From assembly GCA_020152595.1 (NCBI GenBank), contig JAIGNY010002039.1, forward strand, positions 788,501 to 852,500: DNA of 64,000 nucleotides, given 5' to 3'. The notes beneath the pieces were generated by a model, which worked only from the letters and a program-made list of their open reading frames with translations, did not search any database and was not told the DNA's origin. The position numbers and the translations under genes were made by a program. Numbering within the stretch: the stretch's first letter is position 1; each line of letters starts with the position of its first letter. The DNA is from Chiridota heheva. Taxonomy: Eukaryota > Echinodermata > Holothuroidea > Apodida > Chiridotidae. Below are positions 17,107 to 60,089 of this stretch, in pieces.

Positions 17107-17644
17107 GGGGGATGTTTCTGGTAAAGAGATTCTAGGGGGATGTTTCTCGTAAAGAGGGTATGTTATATTTGTAAAGAGAGAGAATGTTGTCTTACGAAAC
17201 TTCTTGACCTTCACTAATATATCTGATTCATAATGGTAATTTCACTTCTGCAGCGATAATTAATTGGCTTGTTGGTGTATGGTCGGTGATTGTGTAAGCA
17301 TTTTGACCAATCAGAAATGTTGGATTATATTGCATTTTTATCTCCAATGTTAATATGATAAGCGATCTTTAAGGTGATAAAGAAAGTTGTGCAAATTTTT
17401 TGATCAAATTAATTGTCTGTCTGGTCGTTAATTCAGATTCGTTCAGCTACACGCTCATCTTTTTGTATTGAGCAGACTTTGTGAAAACAGACCGACATTC
17501 CTTAAGATTTTGGGGAAGAAGTTCATTTTCCAAGATCAAAATTATAAAGAGGCGATATTATCATTTCTCTAGATCAAAAATTAAAGGTGTTTGTTCTTCA
17601 TTTAATATTCCTTGATGGTGGTCAGAAGATAATTTTGTCAGGTA
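17107..17644 (+). other. Start of DOP1 3' UTR / downstream region
   Basis: Besides the stop-codon-proximal duplication (17,101-17,182) it holds only AT-rich unique sequence. I see no AATAAA here. ATTAAA occurs near 17,580 and again near 18,674, the latter with T/G-rich sequence after it. The 3' end of the transcript cannot be fixed. Confidence 0.4.
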
Positions 17645-18470
17645 GTGTGTGCAATGGAAGGGAGGAGGTGGTGTGTGTTTGGAAGGGAGGAGGTGGCGTG
17701 TGTTTGAAAGGGAGGAGGTGGCGTGTGTTGGGAAGGGAGGAGGTGGCGTGTGTTGGGAAGGGAGGAGGTGGCGTGTGTTTGGAAGGGAGGAGGTGGCGTG
17801 TGTTTGGAAGGGAGGAGGTGGCGGCGTGTTTGAAAGGGAGGAGGTGGCGTGTGTTTGATAGGGAGGAGGTGGCGTGTGTTTGGAAGGGAGGAGGTGGCAT
17901 GTGTTTGGAAGGGAGGAGGTGGCGTGTGTTTGGAAGGAAGGAGGTGGCGTGTGTTTGGAAGGGAGGAGGTGGCGTGTGTTTGGAAGGGAGGAGGTGGCGT
18001 GTGTTGGGAAGGGAGGAGGTGGCGTGTGTTGGGAAGGGCGGAGGTGGTGTGTGTTAGGAAGGGAGGAGGTGGCGTGTGTTGGGAAGGGAGGAGGTTGCGT
18101 GTGTTGGGAAGGGAGGAGGTGGCGTGTGTTAGGAAGGGAGGAGGTGGCGTGTGTTGGGAAGGGAGGAGGTGGCGTGTGTTTGGAAGGGAGGAGGTCCCGT
18201 GTGTTGGGAAGTGAGGTGGCGTGTGTTGGGAAGGGAGGGATGGCGTGTGTTGGGAAGGGAGGAGGTGGCCTCTGTTGGGAAGGGAGGAGGTGGCGTCTGT
18301 TGGGAAGGGAGGAGGTGGCGTCTGTTGGAAAGGGAGGAGGTGGCATCTCTTGGAAAGGGAGGAGGTGGCGTCTGTTGGAAAGGGAGGAAATGGCATCTGT
18401 TGGGAAGGGAGGAGGTGGCGTCTTGTTTGCAAGGTAGGAGGTGGCGTCTGTTTGCAAGGGAATGGGGAAG
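17645..18470. repeat. G-rich minisatellite, 25-bp unit, about 33 copies
   Basis: The unit contains GGGAGGAGGTGGCGTGTGTT followed by TGGAA. Long open frames on both strands are by-products, not genes. Variants near the right end read GTCTGTTGG instead of GTGTGTTGG. Every unit carries closely spaced G runs on the + strand. Confidence 0.95.
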
Positions 18471-19159
18471 GGGTTATTGTCAAGTTTTGCATTGGAATGC
18501 AGTTGATCAAATCCAAATTGATGGGTGCAGTTTGAGTATTCTCAGGTTACGTGTTAATCTATAATTGTGATTCATTCCTTCAATATTTTTCAATACAGTA
18601 ATTTTTTAACTCGTGAAAGTGTTCTTCAATTCGTCTGCTGAACTTTATTCAAGTACTTTTCTGTATTTCATTATTAAACCTCATTATATTCTATGGTCTT
18701 TCTCATGTTTGCTTGAGCCTTAACTTTTCAGTCATTGAAATCATTTTTTAAGGCTCCTTCCAAACATTATTTAAGAGACTGCCAACGATACTGTTTTGCC
18801 ATCTTCTCGGGTATAACTATGTAAGAATTATTGGAGCTTTTATTGTATTGAAGAGTGGTAGTATGCATGCCATATGATCAGGTCATATTTTCTTAATATA
18901 AAGCTTTAAATTATGTTTAGGGCGGAATGGAGGGGTCTGTTCCCCATGTTTTTCAGAAATAGCAGTTTGGTTGACTCCTTTGATGTCATCACAGTAGGAC
19001 CATCCTCCGCACAGCTTTCATAGGCTGCAATATATTTTAGTTGAGGAAAACATGATTGTGTGAGAGAGGTGGGGGAGGGGGGGGATGGATGAACATCTTT
19101 TAATTATGCATATAATTCAATACAAAAAAGTAACAATGATTGCAAATCTTTGGTGGCAA
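18471..19159. other. Intergenic, no gene seen
   Basis: AT-rich sequence with a short poly-G tract at about 19,076-19,084. No frame or RNA gene is recognised. Confidence 0.5.
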
Positions 19160-19162
19160 GTA

Positions 19163-19555
19163 CACCCCTTGTTCCTGTGGGGATCCCCTTGTTCATATTC
19201 CCCTTGTTCTTATGGGGAATCCCCCTTGTTCCTATGGGGATCCCCTCTTGTTCCTACGGGGATCCCCCTTGTTCCTATGGGGATCCCCCTTGTTCCTATC
19301 CTATCCCCCTTGTTCCTATTCCTCTTGTTCTTATGGGGAATCCCCCTTGTTCCTATGGGGATCCCCTTGTTCCTATGGGGAACCCCCTTGTTCCTATGGG
19401 GATCCCCCTTGTTCCTATGGGGATCCCCCTTGTTCCTATGGGGATCCCCTTATTCCTATCTATCCCCCTTGTTCCTATCTATCCCCCTTGTTCCTATGGG
19501 GATCTCCCTGTCCCTATGGGGATCTCCCTGTCCCTATGGGGATCCCCCATGGCTC
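19163..19555. repeat. Minisatellite, 21-22-bp unit, about 18 copies
   Basis: The unit is CCCCTTGTTCCTATGGGGAT plus C or CC. Each unit contains the short palindromic core CCCC...GGGG. Apparent proteins of about 160 residues here are repeat translations. Confidence 0.95.
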
Positions 19556-19559
19556 TTTG

Positions 19560-21930
19560 GATGCACTCCTGTCAGTTTCTTTCTCACAAAGTTGTAGTTG
19601 GTGTTATTATTGATCATAATTAATCTGGGGTGGACGCAAAATTTACACTAAAATAATAATTGTAATTCATAGAATGTTACTCAGGAAGTAACAAGTTGAG
19701 TGTCTCAAATGTCTTTACATTTTGGTAACAACACATTTGAAAACCTTATATCAAGTCACTGTTTCACATTTGAATTTTTGTCTCTTGAGAGCATGTTTAC
19801 CTTTACAAGAATATAGCTTTAAGGTGGTGTCCGCAGAGGTAGGGAACAACCCCCTTCACCAGGGAACTCGATCCCCTGTCAAAGATTGAAAAAAAAAAAA
19901 AAATCAGGGGGCTGTGAGCATTAAAGAAAATATGGATTCTAACTGACATTTCCATCGATGTTAGTTCCCCTGCCCAGGGACACTAGCCTTCCCTCTTGGA
20001 CGAATCCTACACGTGGGGTCACTCCCCATGTAGATTTTGTCATTTGATGGATTTAGAATTTGAGGGTAAATGATTATTTTATACTGTTAGATTTGGTCTC
20101 TTCAGAAAAAGAATTCTGATTTGGGTTGTACATGAGTGATTTATTCATGTATCTAAAATTCTTGAAAATGTATCCATATCCAGCTAAAGAAATAAACTTC
20201 CATCAGTAATATCTTGAAAGCAATTGGTTTGAACCTTGCAATATTGGTAATAATTTCCAAGAACAGGTTGCTTTCAAAAATGATGTTCCCATTGCAGAGA
20301 ATATCGTTCATGTTCACTAAAGTTGTCTGCACTATTGACAGTTCTTTCAGTTCCACTTACTTCAGCTGGTCACTTTTGTCATGAAACAAATAGCAATCCG
20401 AATATTGTGTGCTTTGTTTACTTTCACGCCACATAGTGGTGGGTAAGTATGAGATAAGATGCTCGGGGTCTAGGGCAAAAACAGTTCAAATCAAGACGTA
20501 AATTGCAGCGTTTATATAAAATAATATAACAACAAATATTATTTTTCGGAAGTGTGAAGGGTAATTCTCCTCGGCAAATCCGAGCCACTATATTGAAAAT
20601 GATGAAGATCAAAAAGGTCCATCACCTATTTTGTCATTATCAAGCATAGGTGTCTGCCAATTTTTGGGGCTGTTTTAACACACATTCCTTTCCTTAATTT
20701 GTACAGGCCCTCTAGGACTGGGAGTAATGTCCCCCTTATCTTCTCAGTGGTAATGTTTGAGAGTTATTTCTGTGGGAAGCATCGCATTCATTCACGTATT
20801 TATTTTTTTAAACTGGTTTTCATAAGTTTTTATATTTGACAGTTCCACAAAATGTAGTGATGGGAAAGCCGTTTTTATATCAAAGTTCATTTAGAAGACA
20901 AATTTTGTTTTGTTTTTGATGCTGGTGTAATATTTGTGATGTTAGATATTTTTTATTCATATGTAAGAATTTATTAGAGGTTTTTCACATGTCTGAAAAA
21001 GTGCATTATTTGTGCAATAACATTTTGTTTCAGTTCAGTGTATCTATTTTCTCTTTGAATTTCATGCAGAGTATTCAGAATGAGAGTTAAGAAATGAAGA
21101 ATTTTAATGATCAAAATTAACGACGAACAAGAGAGAATCTAGAACAAAATAAAACAATAGCATTTTAAAGTAAAGACCGATGAAACTTACTGTATTTTCA
21201 TTAAAACATTTTTTCACACCTGTCGAAATGTTACTCATCAATTATTTTTTGTGATAAAAGTTTTCTGAGGGAATTCTTATTTCGTAGGAAAAAGTGAAAA
21301 TATATTGTCAGAAAACACTTGTAATGTTTACTTGTGGACAGTTTATTTGGGATACTGATCATTGATGATGGGAGGGAGGAATAAAATTAATTAATAATAA
21401 TCATTAGTTAAATTAAAATGGTAATAAATTAAGAATTATGATTAATCAGATATGTGGGTTACTGATATATATATATTGTATAATATAAGATATTTGACAC
21501 AAACATTGCAGAAAGTATTTATGTAGAGAACGGATATGTGAGAATACACTTTCATACCTTGAAGTAATGTGGTCTTCTCTTTTGTAGTAAGCCAAGTTTT
21601 GTTTTAACTGCTATTCAGACCTCTGTTGAGGCAAACTTTCCAGTGTTCCCATTTTCTTTGCTATTGTGACACTCTTTTCAGGCGAGAAGTTTGTTTGTAA
21701 ACTAGATGCAAATTACTATTAAACAAAAGCTTATTGTACTGAGTTCTTTTCAGGTGAAAAATTCCAAAAATACTGGCAATATTCCATAAATTAAACATTT
21801 TGCGATCGCTGCTGATGATGGACTGATCGCTATGACTCCTTTCTGCCTCACAGGATGAGCAAAATAAACTAGATAAGAACACATCACATGCTGTGACTTT
21901 ATGTACTAAAAGAAACAGAAATACATGAAA
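19560..21930. other. Intergenic, nothing recognised
   Basis: AT-rich unique-looking DNA. Short reading frames have no recognisable motifs and no exon signals that I trust. There is a TA-rich tract near 21,460-21,490. Confidence 0.5.
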
Positions 21931-22044: not shown

Positions 22045-22843
22045 GAGGACTTAGATTTTGCTGATGATATTGCTCTACTTTTATCTACATATCAACACAT
22101 GCAAACCAAAGTGACCAGGCTTAATCAGTATGATGCAAAAAGTGGGCTAAGAATTAATAAGGATAAGACAGAGCTCATAAAAGTTAACAGCAAATGTGCA
22201 AACTAAATTTTATATCGATAACCAACAACTAAATGAAGTAAATAAGGTTCAGATATCTTGGTGCAATAGTAAGCTTACAAGGTGGTGGCGAGGAAGATTT
22301 CCAAAACAGAATCTCTCAAGCAAGAGTAGCATTTATAAAGTTTAATAAGATATGGAACTCAAGCACATTCTCAATATATACAAAAATACAACTGTTTAAC
22401 TCTCTTGTTATTGTCTGTACTCTTGTATGGTTGCGAGACTTGGAGAGTTAATGTAGCAGATAATAAAAAGCTGGATACATTTATGTTCAAATGCTACAGG
22501 AGAATTTTGAAGATCAGATGGCCGTATGTAATGTCTAACAATGAAGTACTGAGAATCACTAAACATGACAAAATTAGCACTGAAGTAAAAAGGTGGTGGT
22601 GGATTGGTCATGTGATGCGCATGAGCACTATTAAGCACTGTGTGACAGGTATGATGTGGAAACCAGAGTCCGGGAGAAGGAAAGCTGTTCGTCCTAGAAC
22701 GACCTGGAGAAGGACAGTCGGGAAGGAGAGGAAAGTGATGGGATGGAGCTCATGGACAGAAGCCAGACAAATTGCAAATAACAAGTCCAGTGGAGAGTGT
22801 GCACTGCAGCCTTATGGGCCAGAGGAAACTAGGTGAGGTGAGG
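22037..22843 (+). pseudogene. RTE-like non-LTR retrotransposon, broken ORF2 3' end
   Basis: The first part reads LEDLDFADDIALLLSTYQHM, with the FADD reverse-transcriptase catalytic motif at 22,057-22,068, then GLRINKDKTELIKVNS. After frame breaks the frame 22,405-22,836 gives LLSVLLYGCETWRV, LDTFMFKCYRRILKIRW, RWWWIGHVMRM, RPRTTWRRTVGKE and, in a shifted frame, WRVCTAALWARGN. These are the C-terminal motifs of RTE-clade ORF2 proteins. The N-terminal endonuclease and most of the RT are missing. It is flanked by direct repeats of about 95 bp. Confidence 0.88.
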
Positions 22844-31100: not shown

Positions 31101-34100
31101 ACCCTAGTATTATCTGGTGCATCTTACACCCACACCCTAGTATTATCTGGTGCATCTTACACCCCCACCCTAGTATTATCTGGTGCATCTTACACCCCCA
31201 CCCTAGTATTATATGGTGCATCTCACACCCCCACCCTAGTATTATCTGGTGCATCTATTATCTGGTGCATCTTACACCCCCACACCCCCACCCTAGTATT
31301 ATCTGGTGCATCTTACACCCCCACCTAGTATTATCTAGTATCATCTGGTGCATCTTACACCCCACCTAGTATTATCTGGTGCATCTTACACCCCACCCCA
31401 GTATTATCTGGTGCATCTTACACTCCCACCCTAGTATTATCTGGTGCATCTTACACCCCCACCTAGTATTATCTGGTGCATCCAACCCTAGTATTAGTAT
31501 CTTATTTGGTGCATCTTACCCCACCTAGTATTATCCATCACCCTAGTATCATCTGGTGCATCTTACACCCCCAACCTAGTATTATCTGGTGCATCTTACA
31601 CATCCCCACCCTAGTATTATCTGGTGCATCTTACACCCCACACCTAGTATTATCTGGTGCATCTACACCCCACCCTAGTATTATCTGGTGCATCTTACAC
31701 CCCCACCCTAGTATTATCTGGTGCATCTTACACCCCCACCCTAGTATTATCTGGTGCATCTTACACTCCCACCCTAGTATTATCTGGTGCATCTTACACC
31801 CCCACCCTAGTATTATCTGGTGCATCTTACACCCCCACCCTAGTATTATCTGGTGCATCTTACACCCCCACCCTAGTATTATCTGGTGCATCTTACACCC
31901 AACCTAGTATTATTTGGTGCATCTTACACCCCCACCTAGTATTATCTGGTGCATCTTACACCACACCCTAGTATTATCTGGTGCATCTTACACCACACCT
32001 AGAATTATCTGGTGCATCTTACACCCACACCCTAGAATTATCTGGTGCATCTTACACCCCCACCCTAGAATTATCTGGTGCATCTTACGCCCCCACCCTA
32101 GTATTATCTGGTGCATCTTACGCCTCCACCCTAGTATTATCTGGTGCATCTTACACCCACACCCTAGTATTATCTGGCATCTGCATCTTACACCCACCCC
32201 ACCTAGTATTATCTGGTGCATCTAACACCCCACCCTAGTATTATCTGGTGCATCTTACACCCCCCACCTAGTATTATCTGGTGCATCTTACACCCCACCC
32301 TAGTATTATATGGTGCATCTTACACCCACACCCTAGTATTATCTGGTGCATCTTACACCCCCACCCTAGTATTATCTGGTGCATCTCACACCCCCACCCT
32401 AGTATTATCTGGTGCATCTTACACCCCCACCCTAGTATTATCTGGTGCATCTTACACCCCCACCCTAGTATTATCTGGTGCATCTTACACTCCCACCTAG
32501 TATTATCTGGTGCATCTTTCACACCCCACCCTAGTATTATCTGGTGCATCTTACACCCCCACCCTAGTATTATCTGGTGCATCTTACACTAGTATTATCT
32601 GGTGCATCTTACACCCCCACCCTGGTATTATCTTATCTACACCCCCACCTAGTATTATCTGGTGCATCTTACACCCCCACCCTAGTATTATTTGGTGCAT
32701 CTTACACCCCCACCCTAGTATCATCTGGTGCATCTTACACCCCCAACCTAGTATTATTTGGTGCATCTTACACCACCACCCTAGTATTATCTGGTGCATC
32801 TTACACCCACACCCTAGTATTATCTGGTGCATCTAACACCCCCACCCTAGTATTATCTGGTGCATCTTACACCCCCACCCTAGTATTATCTGGTGCATCT
32901 TACACCCCACCCTAGTATTATATGGTGCATCTTACACCCCCACCCTAGTATTATCTGGTGCATCTTACACCCCACCCTAGTATTATCTGGTGCATCTTAC
33001 ACCCCCACCCTAGTATCATCTGGTGCATCTTACACCCCCACCCTAGTATTATCTGGTGCATCTTACACCCCCACCCTAGTATTATCTGGTGCATCTTACA
33101 CCCCCAACCTAGTATTATCTGGTGCATCTTACACCCCCACCTAGTATTATCTGGTGCATCTTACACCCCACCTAGTATTATCTGGTGCATCTTACACCCC
33201 ACCCTGGTATTACATCTGGTGCATCTTACACCCACACCTAGTATTATCTGGTGCATCTTACACCACCACCCTAGTATTATCTGGTGCATCTTACACCCCA
33301 CCTCTGGCATCTTACACTCCCCCCACCCATTATCTGGTGCATCTTACACCCCACCCACCCTAGTATTATCTGGTGCATCTTACACCCCCAACCTAGTATT
33401 ATTTGGTGCATCTTACACCCCCACCCTAGTATTATCTGGTGCATCTTACACCCCACCTAGTATTATCTGCATCTTACACCCCCACCCTAGTATTATCTGG
33501 TGCATCTTACACCCCACCTAGTATTATCTGGTGCATCTAGTATTATCTGGTGCATCTTACACCCCCCCACCCTAGTATTATCTGGTGCATCTTACACCCC
33601 CACCCTAGTATTATCTGGTGCATCTTACACCCCCAGCCTAGTATTATCTGGTGCATCTTACACCCCCACCCTAGTATTATCTGGTGCATCTTACACCCCC
33701 ACCCTAGTATTATCTGGTGCATCTTACACCCCCACCCTAGTATTATCTGGTGCATCTTACACCCACACCCTAGTATTATCTGGTGCATCTTACACCCCCA
33801 CCCTAGTACACCCCATTATCTGGTGCATCTTACACCCCACCCTAGTATTATCTGGTGCATCTTACACCCCACCCTAGTATTATCTGGTGCATCTTACACC
33901 CCACCTAGTATTATCTGGTGCATCTTACACCCCCACCTAGTATTATCTGGTGCATCTTACACCCCCACCCTAGTATTATCTGGTGCATCTTACACCACAC
34001 CCTAGTATTATCTGGTGCATCTTACCACCCTAGTATTATCTGGTGCATACCTAGTACCTATCTGGTGCATCTTACACCCCCCACCCTAGTATTATCTGGT

Positions 34101-37100: not shown

Positions 37101-40100
37101 CCCGAGAGATCTAACTCCGAGTCTGTCACATTAGTCACAGACCCTTGAATGGCCTGAGAGATCTAACCGAGTCTGAATACAGACCCTTGAATGGCCGGAG
37201 AGATCTAACTCCGGGTCTGTCACATCAGTCACAGACCCTTGAATGGCCTGAGAGATCTAACTCCGGGTTTGTCACATTAGTAACAGACCCTTGAATGGCC
37301 CTGTGTTGGTTGAGCTAAAAATGAAATCAGTGTGCTAAAATGAAAGTATGCAAGAATCTGACAAGAGGGAAGCTACAGTATTTGTAGCAAATGTTAACTT
37401 ACTGGATGCTGAAGTCCTCCAAACGTGAGGAAAAACAAATAGAATGGCAAACTCTCCAAGCTGCAAAAGAGAGGAAACAGGACAATAAATTTGAATAAAC
37501 TACTCAATGAGATTTGTGCTATTCTTATATCATTTTTGTACTCATTGCTCTGTAATTTTACCATCCTGTTGGTAAATAGTTCCGACATATCATAACTGTG
37601 AGTTGTAATGATTCTAGTTTGCTTGCTTGTTGAGGTTTAACGACACTCTTGAGTTAGATGTGTCAGTAGGATATAGTGAATCATGATGCAAGAATAATGA
37701 GATAGTTAAGAAGACAAATTTTAGGAGAGGAATAGGAAGGGTTGAGAGGAGAAGAAAGGGAATGGTGGGGAGAGAAATGGTAAGGAGGAGGAAGGGAATG
37801 GTAAGGAGAGGAAGGGAGGGGAAGGGAATGGTAAGGAGAGAAAGGGAAGAGAAAGGAAATGGTAAGGAGAGGAAGGGAGGAGGAAGGGAAGAAAATGGAA
37901 AGGAGAGGAAGATGAGAGAGGAAGGGAATGGTAAGGAGAGGAAGATGAGAAGCAGGGAGGAGGTAGGGAATGGTAAGGACAGGAAGATGCGAGACGGAGG
38001 GAGGAGGAAGGGAATGGTAAGGAGAGGAAGATGAGAGAGGGAGGGAGGAGGAAGGGAATGGTAAGGAGAGGAAGATGAGAGAGGGAGGGAGGAGGAAGGG
38101 AATGGTAAGGAGAGGAAGATGAGAGAGGGAGGGAGGGAGGAGGAAGGGAATGGTAAGGAGAGGAAGATGAGAGAGGGAGGGAGGAGGAAGGGAATGGTAA
38201 GGAGAGGAAGATGAGAGAGGGAGGGAGGGAGGAGGAAGGGAATGGTAAGGGAGAGGAAGATGAGAGAGGGGAGGCGAGGAGGAAGGGAATGGTAAGGAGA
38301 GGAAGATGAGAGAGGGAGGGAGGAGGAAGGGAATGGTAAGGAGAGGAAGATGAGAGAGGGAGGGAGGGAGGAAGGAGGAATGGAATGGTAAGGAGAGGAA
38401 GATGAGAGAGGGAGCGAGGAGGAAGGGAATGGTAAGGAGAGGAAGATGCGAGACGGAGGGAGGAGGAAGGGAATGGTAAGGAGAGGAAGATGAGAGAGGG
38501 AGCGAGGAGGAAGGGAATGGTAAGGAGAGGAAGATGAGAGAGGGAGGGAGGAGGAAGGGAATGGTAAGGAGAGGAAGATGAGAGAGGGAGGGAGGGAGGA
38601 GGAAGGGAATGGTAAGGAGAGGAAGATGAGAGAGGGAGGCGAGGAGGAAGGGAATGGTAAGGAGAGGAAGATGAGAGAGGGAGGGAGGAGGAAGGGAATG
38701 GTAAGGAGAGGAAGATGAGAGAGGGAGGGAGGGAGGAGGAAGGGAATGGTAAGGAGAGGAAGATGAGAGAGGGAGCGAGGAGGAAGGGAATGGTAAGGAG
38801 AGGAAGATGAGAGAGGGAGGGAGGAGGAAGGGAATGGTAAGGAGAGGAAGATGAGAGAGGGAGGGAGGGAGGAGGAAGGGAATGGTAAGGAGAGGAAGAT
38901 GAGAGAGGGGGAGGGAGGAGGAAGGAATGGTAAGGACAGGAAGATGAGAGAGGGAGGGAGGAGGAAGGGAATGGTAAGGAAAGAAAGATGAGAGAGGGAG
39001 GGAGGGAGGGAGGAGGAAGGGAATGGTAAGGACAGGAAGATGCGAGACGGAGGGAGGAGGAAGGGAATGGTAAGGACAGGAAGATGCCAGACGGAGGGAG
39101 GAGGAAGGGAATGGTAAGAAGAGGAAGATGAGAGAGGAGGTTCTACAATGATTCTAGGCCACCTTTTTCTATGTAAACTGATTTTTTTCATGCACAGTAT
39201 TCATGTCTGCATGGCAAGATATTTCATGTGACTTTTTCTGCTCTCTTGTTTCTCAAAACAACCAACTTCTCAGATAAAACAAACTGCTAAAAACTGCATC
39301 AAATAAATTTAATTCATACCTGAAAATATTCTCGTAATACAAGTTTATTGTTTATTAAAATATCTGAAAATTTACGATATTTTGATGAATTTATCAATTA
39401 TGTTTAAACATTTATACCTGAGAATATTCTAGTTATTATTTTGTTAAAAATAAAATTTGAGTAAAAAAATAAAAGGAATTAATTATATATAAAAAAAACT
39501 AAGAAGCCCATAGTAAACTTACCTCATCAAAGTCTCGTAGCAATTTATTGCTACACGAGGATTTTTCCAACAATCTTACCCTGGGGAAAACTTTTCCCCA
39601 TTCTAAGATTGTGACTTTAACATTCTTGGATGGGATTTGACACACTGTGGCTTTGAAACTATATAGCCCCCTTATATACACCTCATATTCAACAGATGCC
39701 TTGCAACAGACCATAGTGCAGAGAAATTATTTGTTTATTTGTTGAGGTGTAATGGCACTGTACCAGTCAGAGTCAAAGAGAATTTAAAACCTAAAAGATA
39801 ATCTAAAAACCTACAATGGAGATGAAAGACCCTTTCTTTTGATAGACAGGCTCAATTATTTTTTTCAAACGCTGCTACATGCAGTTTTACCTAGCTTTTG
39901 ACATACCCCACATATTTGGAAAATACGTACTTCATTTTACCTTTCATATTCAGGCTAAATTGTCTCTACACCATGATTTTGCATAAAACAACCATTCTGC
40001 ACACTTCTGCTTGTCCACATTGAAGTTATACAAATCATGCTAAAATGAACTCTTCATAATTTGTATTTCATTCTACTCCTTTGTTCATTTGGTTGAAATA

Positions 40101-43712: not shown

Positions 43713-44930
43713 ATAAACAGAATCAAGTTCAAAATCTTTCATTAACTGTGTCCTGAAATTTTCAAACACATCTGCCAGAAGACAAACATCTTTCTGTAGG
43801 TATATGACGTAATAATTTTTCTTACTTACACATTGGAATGTTCCCCATTTTTTTCTCGCATGTTTATAGTCATCTGGTTTACATTCTTTATTATTCAAAC
43901 CATCATATAATTCTTCGATTAGAAGCAGGTGGTGTTCGTTTTTTTCTCTCGAACGAATCCATATATACATAAGGGTATACACCTTTGCGGTACCAAGTCA
44001 GTCAATCTTGGTAATTGACCAAGAAAATGGAACTTCTCCTTACCTTTACCATTTTCATACAGGTTTTTCAGAAGTTGGTTCAAAGAAGACGACATAAACT
44101 GGAGAGTGTCTTTGAATACCAGTGCACCATTTGAACATTTAATATCAAATCCTAGATATTTTTCATATTTGTGATGATTGCATGTTACTTTTTCTCCATT
44201 TTGTAAAGAAGAAATAATAATGTGAAAAACAGAAACTTTAAGGTTGTGAAAAAATACTGGTATATTTGAATAATCTTTCTCTAAACTAAGTTTTCTATTA
44301 CATATATCATGTGCTGCACCGCGGAACTTGCCAGTAAAGTGATTATGATCTCTCACTTCATGATGGAGGCTGTCTTGTTCTAATTTACCTCCAAAGAATC
44401 TTTTCCTACATAACAACAATTTGTAGCTTTGTTGGATATTCTTTCATCCTCTGGAGTAATTACTAATTTTTTTGATTTGCTATTATGTGGTTTCTTATTT
44501 CTTATGAGTTGCTGATAATGATTGTAAAAACTTTAATCCAAGATTTTCCGATTCTTCTTCTGTTGTAGCTGTGAATGATTCCTGATAAAATACCCCACAC
44601 AACCATATAAAATAACTACAAACCTTGTGCTTCTTGAGTTATTTTAGTTTTGGCACTAGATTCAGAAGCCAATGGACTCAAGGGAGCCATTCAACTCAAA
44701 AATGCATTCAAAATCTGCATCAATGACAAATAGTGTTTTTTCAATATTTTTGTAGTTCCAAACTTTAGTATGTTTTTGGCATGCCCGTTTTTGAGTTCTT
44801 TTTGGTTGGGTAACATTTTTGTAAGCTGGAGTTCTTATGTTTATACAATTTTCACGATGATCAACTCTATTCTTTCAGAAGTGAAATGTTGTTTACATAA
44901 ATTGCAAAAAAATTTTGCTTTCCATTTTAA
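43713..44930 (-). pseudogene. Polinton/Maverick-type protein-primed DNA polymerase B, exonuclease half, broken
   Basis: Read from 44,930 downward in several frames: a Cys/His zinc-binding stretch (CNLCKQHFTSE), VIDADFECIFE (exonuclease motif I, D-x-E), TPEDERI, CNRKLSLE after VRDHNHFTGKFRGAAHD, IPVFFHNL, DTLQFMSSSLNQLLKNL, and YVIYLQKDVCLLADVFENFR (YxxxD exonuclease motif III). This order is typical of the type-2, protein-primed family B polymerase of Polintons and relatives. The match stops at about 43,713, where a dispersed repeat starts, so the palm domain is absent. Several stops and frameshifts show it is dead. No integrase, capsid or TIR is seen. Confidence 0.82.
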
Positions 44931-51170: not shown

Positions 51171-52064
51171 TTCAATGCTATAGACAAGAACATCTTTCAT
51201 TTAAGAGGGCACTTGAGAAGTTTTACAGATGTTCTTAATGAACCAGTTGAATCTAAAATCACACTATCTTCAGAGTGCTAAAATTCCACACTGATTTATT
51301 TTTAAAATGGATTGCGCAACAAATTCTTAACACAGTTACCCACGGATTCGCCATGAGTCCTTAGTTGTTTAGTAAAACATTATACAACACACACATAATT
51401 CCTTAGATAAATAGTTGTCTCAGATCTTGTCCAGGCTGCCAGGGTTCTTACTGCTAAGCAAAACCTAAAATTGTGTTCTATGTCGTCAAAAAAAAGCATA
51501 AATCAGGACTGTAAATATTTTTGTTTATTTTAAGTCCCCTTACTCCACAAGCAATTAACAATGATAAAACATTAGTTGTTTTAGCTCTACTACTTCATTA
51601 TTGGTTTGTATCTTTGTATCCTCAAATGGATAGTTTGATGTCAAGGTCTTCGATCAGTATGTGAAGTATAGTACGTATGTGTCTACGGACGAGTGGTGTG
51701 TGTGTGTGTTTGCTTGTGTTTGTGTGTGAGGGGTTGGAGGAGCAGTGTTATTAAAGAAACTTGTGTTTGAAAAAAAAATCCGTCTGAACGTGGGGTGAGG
51801 GGAGGGGGTGGGGGTTCTAAGAGCCTTTATCCAGACAATACCAGACAATAACAAAATGAACATATATTCAGTGAGCATTGCATTAAAGATCTGTGAAAGC
51901 CGTTTTTAACTACTAAAAGAAAGTTATCAGAACAGTATATGCATTTCAAATATTCCATTTTCAGTTTCCAATTTGTTGACCGAAATTTTAGGATTTTTCG
52001 GTTGATAAAAGATTTGTGGTGCATATGGTTGCACTGGTGTTATGTTACCATCGAATGTTCCTAT

Positions 52065-52395
52065 TAGTGGGGCGGATATGTGACTGAGGTGTGCACTTCT
52101 GGATAGAAGCGTGAAAATTTGCACAAAGGGGTTTTTGAGTATGCTGATTTCAAAAATTGCGGGAACCACGATGTCACTCCAACCCTTCCCGCCAAAAAGT
52201 CGAAAATTCAAAATGGCCACCACAAACACGTTTTTGCCCATAAATCAGCTGCTAGTGCCCCGATTGCCATAATCTTGGTGTCTATATCTATGTTCTTGAG
52301 GTCAAGAAATCCAATAAAACCCATGCGAAACATCAAAAGATCCATCTTCTTGCCAAAAAATTGAAAATTCAATTCAAAATGGCCGCCACAAACTT
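52065..52395. repeat. Left terminal inverted repeat
   Basis: Contains GTGCACTTCTGGATAGAAGC, TTTTTGAGTATGCTGATTTC, AAAATTGCGGGAACCAC, AAAATGGCCACCACAAACAC, TAATCTTGGTGTCTATA and CTTGAGGTCAAGAAATCCAA, each found inverted on the right. Confidence 0.88.
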
Positions 52396-52439
52396 ATATG
52401 AGAATCTCATGAGAAAAGAAAAGTTCTCTATCTGCCCTC

Positions 52440-55400
52440 GTTGGGATGATTCCAGGGAGGTCAAATGCAACACAACGTGTAGATGACAACGATGTAAGCA
52501 CAGCTGCCTTTTCCATCACACAGTTACCTGTCTTCAATGCCGTCAAACGAGGTAGGAGAGATTCTGTAGCAGCACGGCACAATTCGGACTGTGAGACGGT
52601 TCTCCCATTGTATCTTGGCCTGCTTATTTACAACCGAACGCACAAACGTGATCTCATTGACAATCTATTTGAAAAGGGTCTGTCGGTGTCATATGACAGA
52701 GTTTTGCAACTGTCTACTGATGAAGCTTATAGAATAATTGACATATATGAGAATGAGGGCATTGTCTGTCCTTCAAACCTCAGAGACCAACTGTTCACCA
52801 CTGGAAATCTTGATGATATAGATCACAACTTGTCATCCACCTCAAGTCGTGATTCTTTTCATGGCACCGCAATATCAATAACACAGCACATCACAAATGA
52901 CATTCCTGGTGTTGCTAGGGTCCTTCAGGAGATTCCCGAAAACAGGGCCCAACCAAAAGTCGAAATCTATCAAGTCATTACCAAAGTCATATACTGATGT
53001 GCCACCGGTTTCGCTCCTGATAATGTCATCCCAACAGTAGAGGATGATGAAGCAATTCCAATATCTGCGGAAACGAATGATGATGAAATGCAGAAGTTTT
53101 GCTTTGAAAAAGTGAGGACGAAGTTGGCTAATGAAAATCAAATTGATCAGGTGAAGACGGACATATCATGGTCAGCCTACTTTGCCAGCTTACAGGTGTC
53201 TCTACCCAAGACATCTGCAATTATCTCTCTCTTACCATTATTTCGAGATCAAGCACATTCACCGCTATGGTCAAGCATGGGATGAATATCATCAAACAGA
53301 TCACGGTTCGTGTCAACCCAGGACAGATACCACTGCTCACTGTCGATCAGCCATTATATGCAATTGCAAAACGAATTCAGTGAATATGGCCAGAAGAGTA
53401 TGGTGAAAGACATTACGTTGTACTGATGGGGGGTCTCCATATAGAAATGGCCATGTTGAAAGTAATTGGCGGCTGGCTTGATGGTAGTGGTTGGACCTTT
53501 GTTATGACTTCGGCCAATGTTACAACTGAGGGACGTGCAGCTGGTCTGCAGAAAGGTTCACACACATCCAGAGGTCAGTGGGCACATCAAGTAACCGCAG
53601 CGGCTCTGTACATTCTCCTTCACAGGTCATATCCTGAGTATCAAATCAACACATCAGATGATGAACAAATACACTATGATGAGTGGTGTAAACAGATGGC
53701 TTCAAAGCATCCTCAGTTCGATTACTGGTACAAAGTCTAGCAGTTGGAACTTCTCTTCCTACAGTTCCTTAGATCACAGCGTGAGCAAAGATATGTTGCC
53801 TACGTGCAGTCACTTGGAAAGATTATTCCATGGATGTTCGCTCTTGACCACTACCACTATGCTCGCTGGATGACCGTTCATGTGAGAGACCTACAATCCC
53901 TTGAGATTAACTGCCCTACCACACATGCAGAGTTCCTCAAAGGCAACTTTGTGACACAGAAAACTATGCACAAATTCTCAGCACTAGCCCATAATCAAGT
54001 TCATGAACAGCTAAATGCAATGGTGAAGGGAGATGGAGGCATAATAGGTATCACTGAAAATGAAGCAGCACTAGCAAGGTGGATGGTGGCAGGTCCAGAA
54101 ACAGCTAGACTTCTAATGGAGTAATATGACAAACATGCTAGGGAAAAGAAGGACACAGAACGCCACCATGAACAAATACCAAGTGTACAGAAGACTTTCT
54201 TATCTCACGTCAAGAGTGTCACTGATGTAATGGATGAACTTGGCAACCCCTTTGCTGATACAAGCACAGACCTCTACGCACTTGACACCAAAGTGATAAT
54301 GTCTGATAGTGTGGTAAATGCTATAAGGTCTGCAGAGGACATAGGCAAAACACAGTACAAGAAATTTGTTGCCGAGCGTATCAATGGCACAATCACTGCA
54401 TTCAAAGACACCATACATAAGAACAATCTGCCTTTGTTAGATTCTAGTTCACGAAAGAAACCTGCAAAGTCCGCTTCCAAGATTTCCAACCTGCATAGTG
54501 ATGTTTGTCTCTTTTCACGGATGTATATATCGTGTCAAGCTAGAGAAAGCGATATGGATGCCTTCTTCAGCCATGAAAATCATGCCTGGCCTCCATCATT
54601 GGCATCAAATGGTATTATGCATCAAACATGCAAATCTGACTTGATGGGATGCCTGGAGACAATGGTACCATAGCCAGAATCTGTTTCAAAAGTTGACGTC
54701 AAAATTGTTGACGGTGCTGCCCTTCTGCACATGCTTGATCCAAAGAAGTCCAAACTTTCTGTCAAAACATTCCAGGACTATTTACAACTGGTGTTCTTGC
54801 CTTACATAGAACTCATGTTACAAGACGTTCTTCGTGTAGATGTTGTCTGGGATGTCTACAGGAGGACAGCCTAAAGACACAAACACGACAGAGCCGTGGA
54901 TCTGGTAATCATCTCCGGGTGGACAACAACACCAATATTCCTGTTAACTGGAAGAACTTCCTTCGCTGTGATGCAAATAAAGACAGCCTGTTCCGACTTC
55001 TAGCCAATGCAATACAAGAGTTTCAACCTCCCCCAGAGAAGCAAGTGACCTCCACACATGGCCAGAATGTTGTATCATCTCCCATGACTGAACTTTCAAG
55101 CTTGTCCTGCACTCATGAAGAAGCGGACACACGGCTTCTTTTTCATGCTTCCCATGCGTTCCATCATGGATTTACCAAGCTGATGATACACGCAACAGAT
55201 ACTGATGTGGTGGTTATTGCGCTTGCAGTGTCCAGCGTTTTACAGGACTGTGAAATATGGATAGCATTTGGTCATGGTGGTAGACTACGTTACATCCCAT
55301 GCCACCTAATTGCAGCGGAATTAGGCAATGACGCATCATGGGGTTTACTTTTCTTGCACGCAATATCAGGATGTGATACTGTCTCTGCCTTTCATGGAAT

Positions 55401-55920
55401 TAGAAAGAGAACCGCTTGGGCTGTATGGTGCAGTATGCCTTATCTCAAACCAATTTTAGCTCGGTTATCCCATGCTCCATGCCAGGTTTCCCCCAGCGAC
55501 TTGGAGCAAATAGAGAGATATGTTGTTCTCTTGTATCAGCGAACATCATCACTCAACCATGTGAATGAAGCCAAGAAGCACTTGTTCACTCAAAACCGTA
55601 AGATGGAAAACATTTCTCCAACGTTACACGCCCTGGAACAGCATGTGAAAAGGGCTGTTTATCAGGCAGGGCACATCTGGGGACAGTCACTTATAGGAGA
55701 CCCTGAAGTTCCATCGCCAGATTTATGGGGCTGGGAGAGAGTAAGAGGTGATTCCCCATGGACTCCATGCTGGACCACTCTTCCAGAGGCAGCCAAAGCT
55801 TGTCAGGAACTGCTGAAATGTGGATGCAAAAAGTCTTGTACAAAAAGATGCAAGTGTGTCTGCGCAAATCTCAAGTGTACACAGTTGTGCTTCTGTTCCG
55901 GACAGTGTAGCAGAGAATAA
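52440..55920 (+). pseudogene. Transposon-encoded protein with PIN/FEN-like core and CXC-like tail, broken
   Basis: Reading through several frames: LPLYLGLLIYNRTHKRDLID, NLFEKGLSVSYDRVLQLST, DDIDHNLSSTSSRDSFHGTA, VNPGQIPLLTVDQPLYAIAK, GGLHIEMAMLKVIGGWLDGS, AHQVTAAALYILLH, FLKGNFVTQKT, HAWPPSLASNG, then the intact part 54,919-55,920. This last part has THEEADTRLLFHASHA, THATDTDVVVIAL-like ATDTDVVVIALAVS, GRLRYIPCHLIAAELG and LHAISGCDTVSAFHGIRK. The acidic spacing (E-AD, D-TD, GCD) resembles XPG/FEN PIN nucleases. The C-terminus is CGCKKSCTKRCKCVCAN and CTQLCFCSGQC, CXC-like. Stops at 52,995, 53,381, 53,738, 54,122 and 54,671 and a frameshift near 53,215-53,260 kill it. Related proteins are common, unnamed, in cnidarian and deuterostome genomes as I recall. 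Confidence 0.75.
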
Positions 55921-56229
55921 AGCAAATCTGAACATATGAGATACTGACAGCGATCATGTAATTATTTTTAACATAATGTATGACACACTATTTGACTGCT
56001 TTACCTGAAAAAGGTATACCATGCTCAATTGTGATATACTTTGATCTGACAAATAAATGCTATTATATGGAATTGTTTTCAACTTTTCACCATAATATTT
56101 CATATGTATTCTATCGACTTGGTATAGATAGTAAGATCACGGTGATTGGGGCAGGTTTTTTGGTCAAAAACTTGTTTTGTGAGGGCATTTTAATTGTATC
56201 TGTTTTACTATTCACAATTTAATGTACGT

Positions 56230-56510
56230 CATGATATTTTATGTTTTCTATTGGGTTCCTTGACATAAAACAGGTATAGATACCAATAAATGATGGCTGG
56301 ATAGCCATTTTATGGCCAACAATGGATTTGCGACGGCCATTTTATGGCCAACAATGGATTTGCGACGGCCATTTTTAATTCTAGGTTTTTCGTGGAAAGA
56401 TCTTATGATAGTTTACGTGGGTTTTATTGGGTACATTGACCTCAAAAACATATGTCTAGAGACCAAGATTATGGCTATTTGGGCACTTAGATCCGTTTTA
56501 TGGTAAAAAA
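56230..56510. repeat. Subterminal repeats of the long-TIR transposon
   Basis: Units of about 170-190 bp continue inward from the right TIR. Each carries CGGCCATTTT, then TCTTATGAT-GTTT, then GTTTTATTGG, TTGACCTCAA-AACATA, and GACCAAGATTATG or a degraded form. About three to four units lie on the right (from 56,230) but only one on the left. A doubled GGCCAACAATGGATTTGCGA occurs at 56,312-56,370. Confidence 0.7.
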
Positions 56511-56849
56511 GCTTTCTTGTGGCGGCCATTTTGAATTTTGAATTTTTTTGGGGGGAAGATGTATCTCATGATGTTTGGCATATGTTTTATTGGATTTCTT
56601 GACCTCAAGAACATAGGTATAGACACCAAGATTATGTTAATCGGGGAACTAACATCTGATTTATGGGCAAAAACGTGTTTATGGCGGCCATTTTGAAATT
56701 TCGACTTTTTGGCGGGAAACGTTAAAGTGACATTGTGGTTCCCGCAATTTTTGAAATCAGCATACTCAAAAAACCCTTTGTGCAAATTTTCATGCTTCTA
56801 TCCAGAAGTGCACACTTTAAGTAAAAATTGTTACATATCCGCCCCACTA
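56510..56849. repeat. Right terminal inverted repeat
   Basis: Inverted counterpart of 52,065-52,395, about 85% identical by eye. It ends CCGCCCCACTA at 56,849. Confidence 0.88.
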
Positions 56850-56859
56850 TATACTCATT

Positions 56860-58940
56860 GGGAAATTAAACTGCACCTCAGAGAAACAGATGCTCTGTCC
56901 AGAGCAAGCAGGTTTCCGCTCAAACCGATCAACAGAGGACCATGTCACAGTGCGCAAAGAATTAAAAACTCCTTTCAGAATATAAAATCTCACACTGACT
57001 GTTTGACTTAAAGAAGGCTTTTGACAAGGTCTGGGAGGATGGACTCATGCTCAAGCAATATGGTGTTTCCAATGATATACGCTTGGATTAACCATTACCG
57101 ACATAATTTTAAAGCCTGTGTGCAGCTTTATGGACACAAAAGCCGCAAGCAACTGCTAAAACAAGGTGTTCCATAGAGAGGAATCCTCTCACCTACCCTC
57201 TTTATCATCTTCATCGATGATCTCATTAATGAACTGCCAAGAAACGTTCAAAGGCAATCTACCGTTACAAAAAGTCCAGATATGGCTATAATAAAGTTTA
57301 TATCTGGGTAAATAAAGTTTGATCTGGCCAAATCAAGCCAGACAAAACCTTGATTAAAGTCAATTTGATACAAAAATAAAGTTCAATCTGGCCAGATCAA
57401 GCCAGATCTGGATATTATTATCTGGCCCGGATCAAACTTCATCTGGCCAGATCAAGTTTAAATTTGTATCTGCCCAATATTTCATATGGCCAGATCTGGT
57501 CCAGTTATATCTGGGCCAGATCTGGAATTTATATCTGGGCCAGATCTGAAATTTATATCTGGGCCAAATCTGGAATTTATTCATATCTGGGCCAGATCTG
57601 GAATTTATTTATATCTGGGATAGATCTGGAATTTATATCTTGGCCAGATCTGGAATTTATATCTGGGCCAGATCTAAAATTTATATCTGGACCAGATCTG
57701 GAATTTATATCTGGGTCAGATCTGGAAGTTGAGTAAGGGTATGCTGACGACCTGGTACTATGGTAATAAGAAGTGTATATCTTTACAGCACAGGTGTGAG
57801 ACCAGGAAGCATTAAACAAGATAGATGCGTGGACCAAAAGATGGTCTCCATCAATACATCCAAAACAACTTTCACAATATTCAGTCACTCCTCCAAATTT
57901 CAGACTGTGACGCTGACATTAGATGAAACGTCTTAACAGAAGAGCCCAATCCTACTTACCTTGGAGTGACCTTTGACCGCCGTCTCTCATGGAAACAACA
58001 GATCAAAAAGTGCTGTACTAAGGCCAAGTTGAGACTTACTATCATGAAGAAGCTGACAGGAAGTACTTGCTGAGCTGATCTACATATCCTAAAAATACTC
58101 AACACAGGCAGCGTTAAGCCAGTGGCAACATAGGGACTCTCCGCCTGGGCCACTACAGCAAATTCCAACTTTGATCAACTGAACAGAGTGCAAAGTCAAG
58201 CTGAACGCCTTATGACTGGTGCCATGCATGAGATCCACTCCAATTAACAAGTTGGATGAAATTACAGGTCTACAGTCTCTAGCTGACAGAACAAACACGA
58301 AGATCCTTACCCAATTGTTAAAACGACTCTAAACCACCCAATGTATAACAGAATGCAAAACCCAACAAAGACCAGACTAAAACCTGTCCGGCTTGAACAT
58401 GATTCCAAATTAATCCCAACTCACGTGTCTCATCCACCCTTAAAAAAAAAAAAAAAGACTTGCTTCCTTCAATACAAACCAACACCCCTGGAACTGAAAA
58501 GAGAGGTTCACAAACTGACTCTGAGCGAAAGGCTCTGGCCATGGAATACATCTGTCAAAACTATTCTAGAGACACCTGGACACATGCTTACACCGATGGT
58601 TCTGCAACAGAGGCCACCAGAGACGAAGCAGCTGGAGTCTTCATCAATTACATCGATGGTGAAGAAAATCTCGCACTGCCAACTGGGAAATATTCCCTAA
58701 CTTCCGAGCAGAAACAGAAGGCCTATGCGCAGCAGCTACAGCAACCTCTGGTAATGTAGCAAGAACAAAAGGCCAATTGGTGCTGCTATCTGATGCCCTT
58801 TCAATCCGTCAATTACTCAAGCGCTCTAATAACAAGGAGATGTATGCTTTAACAAATTCTCTCACTTTTATATGTCATGTTTCTCAAAAAGTGAAATACA
58901 GTGGATACAAAACCACTGTCGACATAAGAGGAAATGAGAA
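56860..58940 (+). pseudogene. Non-LTR retrotransposon with RT and RNase H, broken and split by a minisatellite
   Basis: Readings in order: EQAGFRSNRSTEDHV, LKKAFDKVWEDGL, GVP(stop)RGILSPTLFIIFIDD, LINELPRNVQ, then a 480-bp tandem array, then YADDLVLW (RT catalytic motif, 57,740-57,763), LSINTSKTTFTIF, NPTYLGVTFDRRLSWKQQIK, AKLRLTIMKKL, and RNase H motifs YTDGSA (58,588), FRAETEGLCAAA, VLLSDALS and DIRGNEK. RT followed by RNase H points to the I/Jockey-like group of LINEs. Many stops. The 5' end abuts the long-TIR transposon and the 3' end passes into the GAA microsatellite. Confidence 0.87.
57262..57735. repeat. Minisatellite, 24-bp unit, inside the RT gene
   Basis: The unit contains ATATCTGGGCCAGATCTGGA plus ATTT, each with a palindromic CCAGATCTGG. 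The left third is irregular (AAGTTTGATCTGGCC-type), the right part regular. It separates LINELPRNVQ from YADDLVLW, which are nearly adjacent in intact LINEs. Confidence 0.92.
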
Positions 58941-58964
58941 GAAGAAGAAGAAGAAGAAGCTGTA

Positions 58965-58995
<31 letters not shown>

Positions 58996-59855
58996 TGAAG
59001 AAGAAGAAGAAGAAGAAGAAGACGAAGAAGAAGAAGATCAGAAGAAGAAGAAGAAGAAGAAGAAGAAAGAAGAAGAAGAAGAAGAAGAAGAAGAAGAAGA
59101 AGAAGAAGAAGAAGAAGAAGAAGAAGAAGAAGAAGAAGAAGAAGAAGAAGAAGATGAAGAAGAAGAAGAAGATGAAGAAAGAAGATCAGAAGAAGAAGAA
59201 GAAGAAGAAGAAGAAGAAGAAAGAAGAAGAAGAAGAAGAAGAAGAAGAAGAAGAAGAAAGAAGAAGAAGAAGAAGAAGAAGAAGAAGAAGAAGAAGAAGA
59301 AGAAGAAGAAGAAGAAGAAGAAGAAGAAGAAGAAGAAGAAGAAGAAGAAGAAGAAGAAGAAGAAGAAGAAGAAGAAGAAGAAGAAGAAGAAGAAGAGAAG
59401 AAGAAGAAGAAGAAGAAGAAGAAGAAGAAGAAGAAGAAGAGAAGAAGAAGAAGAAGAAGAAGAAGAAGAAGAAGAAGAAGAAGAAGAAGAAGAAGAAGAA
59501 GAAGAAGAAGAAGAAGAAGAAGAAGAAGAAGAAGAAGAAGAAGAAGAAGAAGAAGAAGAAGAAGAAGAAGAAGAAGAAGAAGAAGAAGAAGAAGAAGAAG
59601 AAGAAGAAGAAGAAGAAGAAGAAGAAGAAGAAGAAGAAGAAGAAGAAGAAGAAGAAGAAGAAGAAGAAGAAGAAGAAGAAGAAGAAGAAGAAGAAGAAGA
59701 AGAAGAAGAAGAAGAAGAAGAAGAAGAAGAAGAAGAAGAAGAAGAAGAAGAAGAAGAAGAAGAAGAAGAAGAAGAAGAAGAAGAAGAAGAAGAAGAAGAA
59801 GAAGAAGAAGAAGAAGAAGAAGAAGAAGAAGAAGAAGAAGAAGAAGAAGAAGAAG

Positions 59856-59887
<32 letters not shown>

Positions 59888-59912
59888 GAAGAAGAAGAAG
59901 AAGAAGAAAACT
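58934..59912. repeat. ~1-kb GAA/AAG microsatellite
   Basis: Almost pure AAG repeats with scattered AGAAAG, GATGAA, AGATCAG and GAGAAG interruptions in the first half and about 470 bp of uninterrupted repeat in the second. The poly-E, poly-K and poly-R frames of about 300 codons are artefacts. It begins at the AATGAGAAG codons (NEK) of the RNase H region. Confidence 0.97.
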
Positions 59913-60089
59913 GTATCTTAAATCTTTAAAGGAGCCGTTTAGAATTTATCATTTGCTTTGTATTTTTTTCTTACATTTGACCAATTTAATTTTTTTATGT
60001 CAATAATTCCTTAGCAGAAATCTTGCAATTTATCAGGGTGTAATATTCATCCCCGAAATCATCAAAACATCCCAATTTTCGCTTAATTT

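Follow-up and report, generated by a model that had tools for sequence, protein, structure and literature searches.

A multicopy DNA transposon of Chiridota heheva, likely of the AcademX lineage, predicted to encode a DDE core and a FEN/XPG-type nuclease in one protein

Structure of the element and its copies in the genome

The window analyzed here is a stretch of 64,000 nucleotides from the holothurian Chiridota heheva (GenBank assembly GCA_020152595.1, contig JAIGNY010002039.1, positions 788,501 to 852,500 of the forward strand). Positions 52065-56849 of the window are an internally deleted, decayed member of a multicopy DNA transposon, the features of which are listed in Table 1. A first-pass annotation, made from the sequence alone, had placed the element at these coordinates and described inverted ends of about 340 bp around a single large, decayed gene on the + strand, and it was right in all three respects. 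The left and right terminal inverted repeats (TIRs) were 87% identical over 337 columns (BLAST). Their outermost 20 bases (52065-52084 versus 56830-56849) were 95% matched; the arms 52089-52367 and 56537-56815, inverted and of 279 bases each, were 90% complementary. Imperfect repeats with a GGCC(A/G)CC / GGCGGCC core were present in 52065-52420 and 56309-56849 at a spacing of 157-166 bp, and once of 32 bp; they are possible binding sites for the transposon protein. The gene was interrupted by five in-frame stops and changed frame twice. Residues 1-352 of the related protein P0001 had no counterpart in the window copy, corresponding to a deletion of the N-terminal ~350 residues.

To find further copies, the 1.1-Gb assembly (3,744 contigs) was searched with the left end, which was found in at least 40 places including the window, at 96-100% identity (40 scored among 247 candidates). 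Twenty-one copies, all picked via the left end, were examined: that of the window plus 20 of the following 21 left-end places (C1586 was left out). The first-pass annotation had proposed to look for target-site duplications and for the same gene between the same ends in many copies, and both were found. Both termini (exact outer 11 bases) were present in 19 of the 21 copies, and one terminus each in L020 and L022. Identical 3-bp flanks were found in 18 of the 19 two-terminus copies, for a chance expectation of ~0.3 (1/64 each); a longer match was found in none, and L010 had no match. The duplication sequences differed among copies (TAT, ACT, ATG, CAA, CTG, and others), and the insertion site is therefore not fixed. 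The longest copies spanned 5.6-5.8 kb. In L009 and L025, the second end aligned over 66 and 103 columns only. By eye, the flanks of L025 looked like cysteine-rich coding sequence of the PHD type, perhaps a further repeat.

Each of the 21 copies read from the end side contained gene sequence. A genome search with a 393-aa stretch of the window gene yielded at least 113 matches, many at 93-97% identity (105 scored of 1,630 candidates), and the longest reported frame with no internal stop within the match was 1,184 residues. Ten of the top 16 gene matches, those on contigs not in the end list and all close copies, were then read from the gene side. All 10 had right-end sequence no more than 1.1 kb from where the gene ends; in L034 and L037 this sequence was partly rearranged. 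Eight of them had the terminal 11 bases in exact form. A cellular gene trapped by chance between repeats was rejected from both sides, by the gene in 21/21 end-side copies, 19 of them with both termini, and by the right-end sequence in 10/10 gene-side copies.

The deletion junction of the window copy recurred in 5 of the 20 other copies (L009, L011, L018, L019, and L021) with differing flanks, which means that a derivative carrying the deletion has moved to several sites. The simplest explanation is that it was mobilized by protein from other copies; the same is likely for the window copy, because its deletion is common to copies at other sites. A second common internal deletion junction, distinct from that of the window copy, was seen beside the left end, near P0001 residue 146, in L012, L017, L023, and L028. 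Observed directly were the ends, the 3-bp duplications, the occurrence of the gene inside these ends in many copies, and the deletion junction common to copies at different sites.

Table 1. Features of the transposon copy, in window coordinates.
Feature	Position	Strand	Remarks
Target-site duplication, left copy	52062..52064	.	3 bp (TAT)
Left TIR	52065..52420	+	begins TAGTGGGGCGG
Left TIR motif	within 52065..52420		GGCC(A/G)CCACAAAC twice, 166 bp spacing
Internal-deletion junction	52400..52440	.	41/41 bases identical between the window copy and five others
Decayed gene	52425..55920	+	corresponds to residues 353-1520 of P0001
DDE transposase core (predicted, RNase H fold) carrying a helical insertion	52791..54115	+	
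DDE catalytic-type sites	first D cluster 52812-52826, second D 53345, E 54005	+	
FEN1/EXO1/XPG-type nuclease (predicted) plus C-terminal tail	54701..55917	+	
Nuclease acidic sites	54710, 54839-54859, 55114-55134, 55192-55212, 55366-55386	+	
GxGKKTAW-like stretch	55393-55419	+	in nuclease region
CXC-type cysteine tail	55819..55917	+	
GGCCATTTT-type motif, right end and inward	56332, 56364, 56521, 56683		spacings 32, 157, 162 bp
Right TIR	56517..56849	-	terminates CCGCCCCACTA
Target-site duplication, right copy	56850..56852	.	3 bp (TAT)

Predicted enzymes of the transposon protein

A read-through of the window gene, with X placed at stops and frame changes, was used as the query for protein relatives. 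Of 7,381 candidates, 546 were relatives with an E value of 1e-3 or lower, in agreement with the abundance of unnamed relatives stated in the first-pass annotation; the 120 matches listed were mostly unnamed. Among these best 120 of 546, 93 were 1,300-1,650 residues long, one, from the annelid Capitella teleta, was named 'Tesmin/TSO1-like CXC domain', and one was a hypothetical protein from the coral Oculina patagonica. The N-terminus of full-length relatives contained two CxxC ... HxxC modules (read by eye), which probably bind zinc. Viral contigs and prokaryote genomes gave 84 and 42 pattern matches, respectively, none of which was confirmed as a relative by tblastn.

An RNase H-fold DDE core was predicted upstream of the nuclease in the same chain. 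Its predicted fold was nearest to that of the P element transposase (6p5a), at 8% identity, and the D, D, and E catalytic-type residues were near-invariant among relatives. No DDE motif had been recognized in the first-pass annotation, which is understandable because the window pieces and relatives scanned matched no transposase family of Pfam. The Pfam scan of window pieces detected no transposase or nuclease family, that of relatives detected DUF6589 and otherwise weak matches under the curated cut-offs but no transposase family, and Foldseek with the DDE half gave no significant match. Of the 34 relatives scanned, 12 matched DUF6589 (PF20231) with an E value of 0.01 or lower. The matched ranges in P0112 (154-346), P0064 (835-944), P0109 (718-877), and P0083 (831-957) all spanned the catalytic-type E, and the match exceeded the curated cut-off in two of these four. 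The present analysis suggests that DUF6589, listed as a domain of unknown function, forms part of the transposase core. A literature search found nothing on DUF6589.

Both the acidic clusters of the C-terminal part and the CxC cysteine tail noted in the first-pass annotation were present, and the PIN/FEN-type nuclease proposed from them was borne out by a FEN/XPG-type fold predicted confidently for residues 671-1037. The acidic sites were near-invariant in the 116-120 listed relatives covering them, and predicted fold and acidic-site pattern both agreed with the FEN/XPG nuclease superfamily. EXO1, FEN1, and XPG have the same fold and the same order of acidic sites, whereas here the domain is fused behind a transposase core within a transposon. 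Presumably, the acidic sites correspond to residues of FEN1 itself. In a viral fold library, the best matches were mostly FEN/XRN-type or unnamed proteins. The family sequence profile did not retrieve EXO1, FEN1, or XPG from the PDB and gave one weak unrelated match. Both folds, and hence both active sites, are predictions. A literature search for XPG together with DDE DNA transposons returned nothing relevant.

Affiliation and possible transposition mechanism

The element most likely represents a family of the AcademX lineage within the Academ superfamily, to which it was compared by published description only; it was assigned there because its DDE transposase, nuclease, and 3-bp duplication match the printed description. 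Probably, then, the family is new but its kind is known, and no new transposase class is involved. The nuclease of AcademX was reportedly named XPG by Kojima in 2020. In the papers cited here, Academ counts among the superfamilies whose transposase is of the DDD/E type (PMC9587614), and duplications of 3 or 4 bp are given for AcademX and of 9 or 10 bp for AcademH, a length that, according to the author, 'seems related' to the encoded enzyme, nuclease in AcademX and helicase in AcademH (PMC10045372). Curated Academ elements of bivalves have a mean length of 5,565 bp, and a few Academ open reading frames are reported from Capitella teleta (PMC10294476). In the present element, a predicted DDD/E core, a predicted nuclease as the second enzyme, and a 3-bp duplication (18/19) were all found. 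Together with the length, 5.6-5.8 kb in the longest copies here and a mean of ~5.6 kb in bivalves, and the animal hosts, these are shared with AcademX as described in those papers, and none of the few comparable features differs, the comparison being one of descriptions and not of sequences. AcademH belongs to the same superfamily by description but differs in its helicase and 9-10 bp duplications, as opposed to the predicted nuclease and 3 bp here. In a literature search for Academ transposons and XPG, none of the matches listed concerned Academ transposons by title or abstract start.

An unnamed superfamily of DDE and FEN-type nuclease elements, separate from Academ, is improbable. It would accord with a likeness to Academ that is drawn from descriptions without direct sequence comparison, and with DUF6589, the sole family above its cut-off, having no assigned function; however, the DDE transposase, the nuclease, and the 3-bp duplication all fit the AcademX account as far as printed in the passages used, and the host range and length given there agree as well. 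P element and hAT (Hermes) transposons generate 8-bp duplications and have no FEN-type nuclease domain, whereas the present element has 3-bp duplications and a fused nuclease. Membership in the P element superfamily was rejected on the difference in duplication length. KolobokE and KolobokP, like the present element, combine a DDE transposase with a second nuclease, but this is of the PD-D/ExK or His-Me finger fold and the duplications are TTAA (PMC9587614). Kolobok membership was rejected, as duplications here were 3 bp long and varied in sequence, versus the TTAA-specific 4 bp.

Taken as a whole, we are confident that the locus is best explained by a multicopy transposon with ~340-bp ends, likely of AcademX, whose protein has a predicted DDE core, a predicted FEN/XPG-type nuclease, and a CXC tail. 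The first-pass annotation had raised the possibility that the nuclease itself is the transposase, which would found a class outside the DDE, HUH, and tyrosine types. The confident fold, the near-invariant acidic sites, and the lack of any Pfam transposase family in the proteins scanned are in line with this proposal, but the same chain has the predicted RNase H-fold core with near-invariant D, D, and E, an observation that the annotation itself had named as one that would refute it. To our knowledge, FEN-type enzymes are hydrolytic and are not known to perform strand transfer, and a short, regular 3-bp duplication is a product of DDE strand transfer; both count against the nuclease as the transposase. 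We consider it very unlikely. The real transposon family, the FEN-type nuclease fold, and the CXC tail stand from that annotation; the non-DDE transposase is not supported.

In an intact copy, the long ends would be bound by the cysteine/histidine modules at the N-terminus and by the CXC tail, and the DDE core would cut the 3' ends and join them to target DNA with a 3-bp stagger. The FEN-like domain would probably cut or trim the complementary 5' strand during transposition, either as second-strand cleavage or as removal of a flap. Conservation of its sites suggests that the nuclease is required. A P-element-like core handling the 3' strands while the FEN-like domain of the same chain makes the 5' cut and sets the 3-bp duplication is a tentative proposal, and equally tentative is the analogy that would make this protein a eukaryotic single-protein counterpart of Tn7 TnsB and TnsA. 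A real possibility, although short of an even chance, is that the DDE core makes all strand breaks and the nuclease is a passenger or acts on 5' flaps after integration. The predicted fold places the nuclease in a 5'-flap-cutting family, and host FEN1 is thought to remove 5' flaps at joined retroviral ends. The two Academ lineages with different second enzymes, as described in the passages used, also differ in duplication length, which was counted in favor of this possibility. A pure passenger is at odds with the almost complete conservation of the nuclease sites in the listed relatives. Conservation fits second-strand cleavage and flap removal alike and does not tell them apart.

Other features of the window and significance

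Elsewhere in the window, an open frame at 43919-44443 (-) presumably resembles the DNA polymerase B region of Polinton/Maverick, and another at 22339-22836 (+) is taken to resemble the C-terminus of a reverse transcriptase protein of the LINE type. Long open frames at 17548-18546, 19064-19623, 32949-34005, and 37614-39200 were built from short tandem repeats, and a trinucleotide repeat of ~1 kb at 58884-60006 left several frames open (poly-Glu, poly-Lys, and poly-Leu).

The results account for a large group of 'CXC-tailed' animal proteins, most of them unnamed, as products of transposons that combine two predicted enzymes, and DUF6589 gains a likely function as part of a transposase core. The question of why a second nuclease accompanies the transposase in some DDE transposons can also be addressed concretely with this element; the near-invariant residues of the two predicted active sites could be changed separately, with excision, joining, and duplication length as readouts. 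No new class of transposase is opened, and the interest lies in a clean two-enzyme transposon family and in DUF6589.
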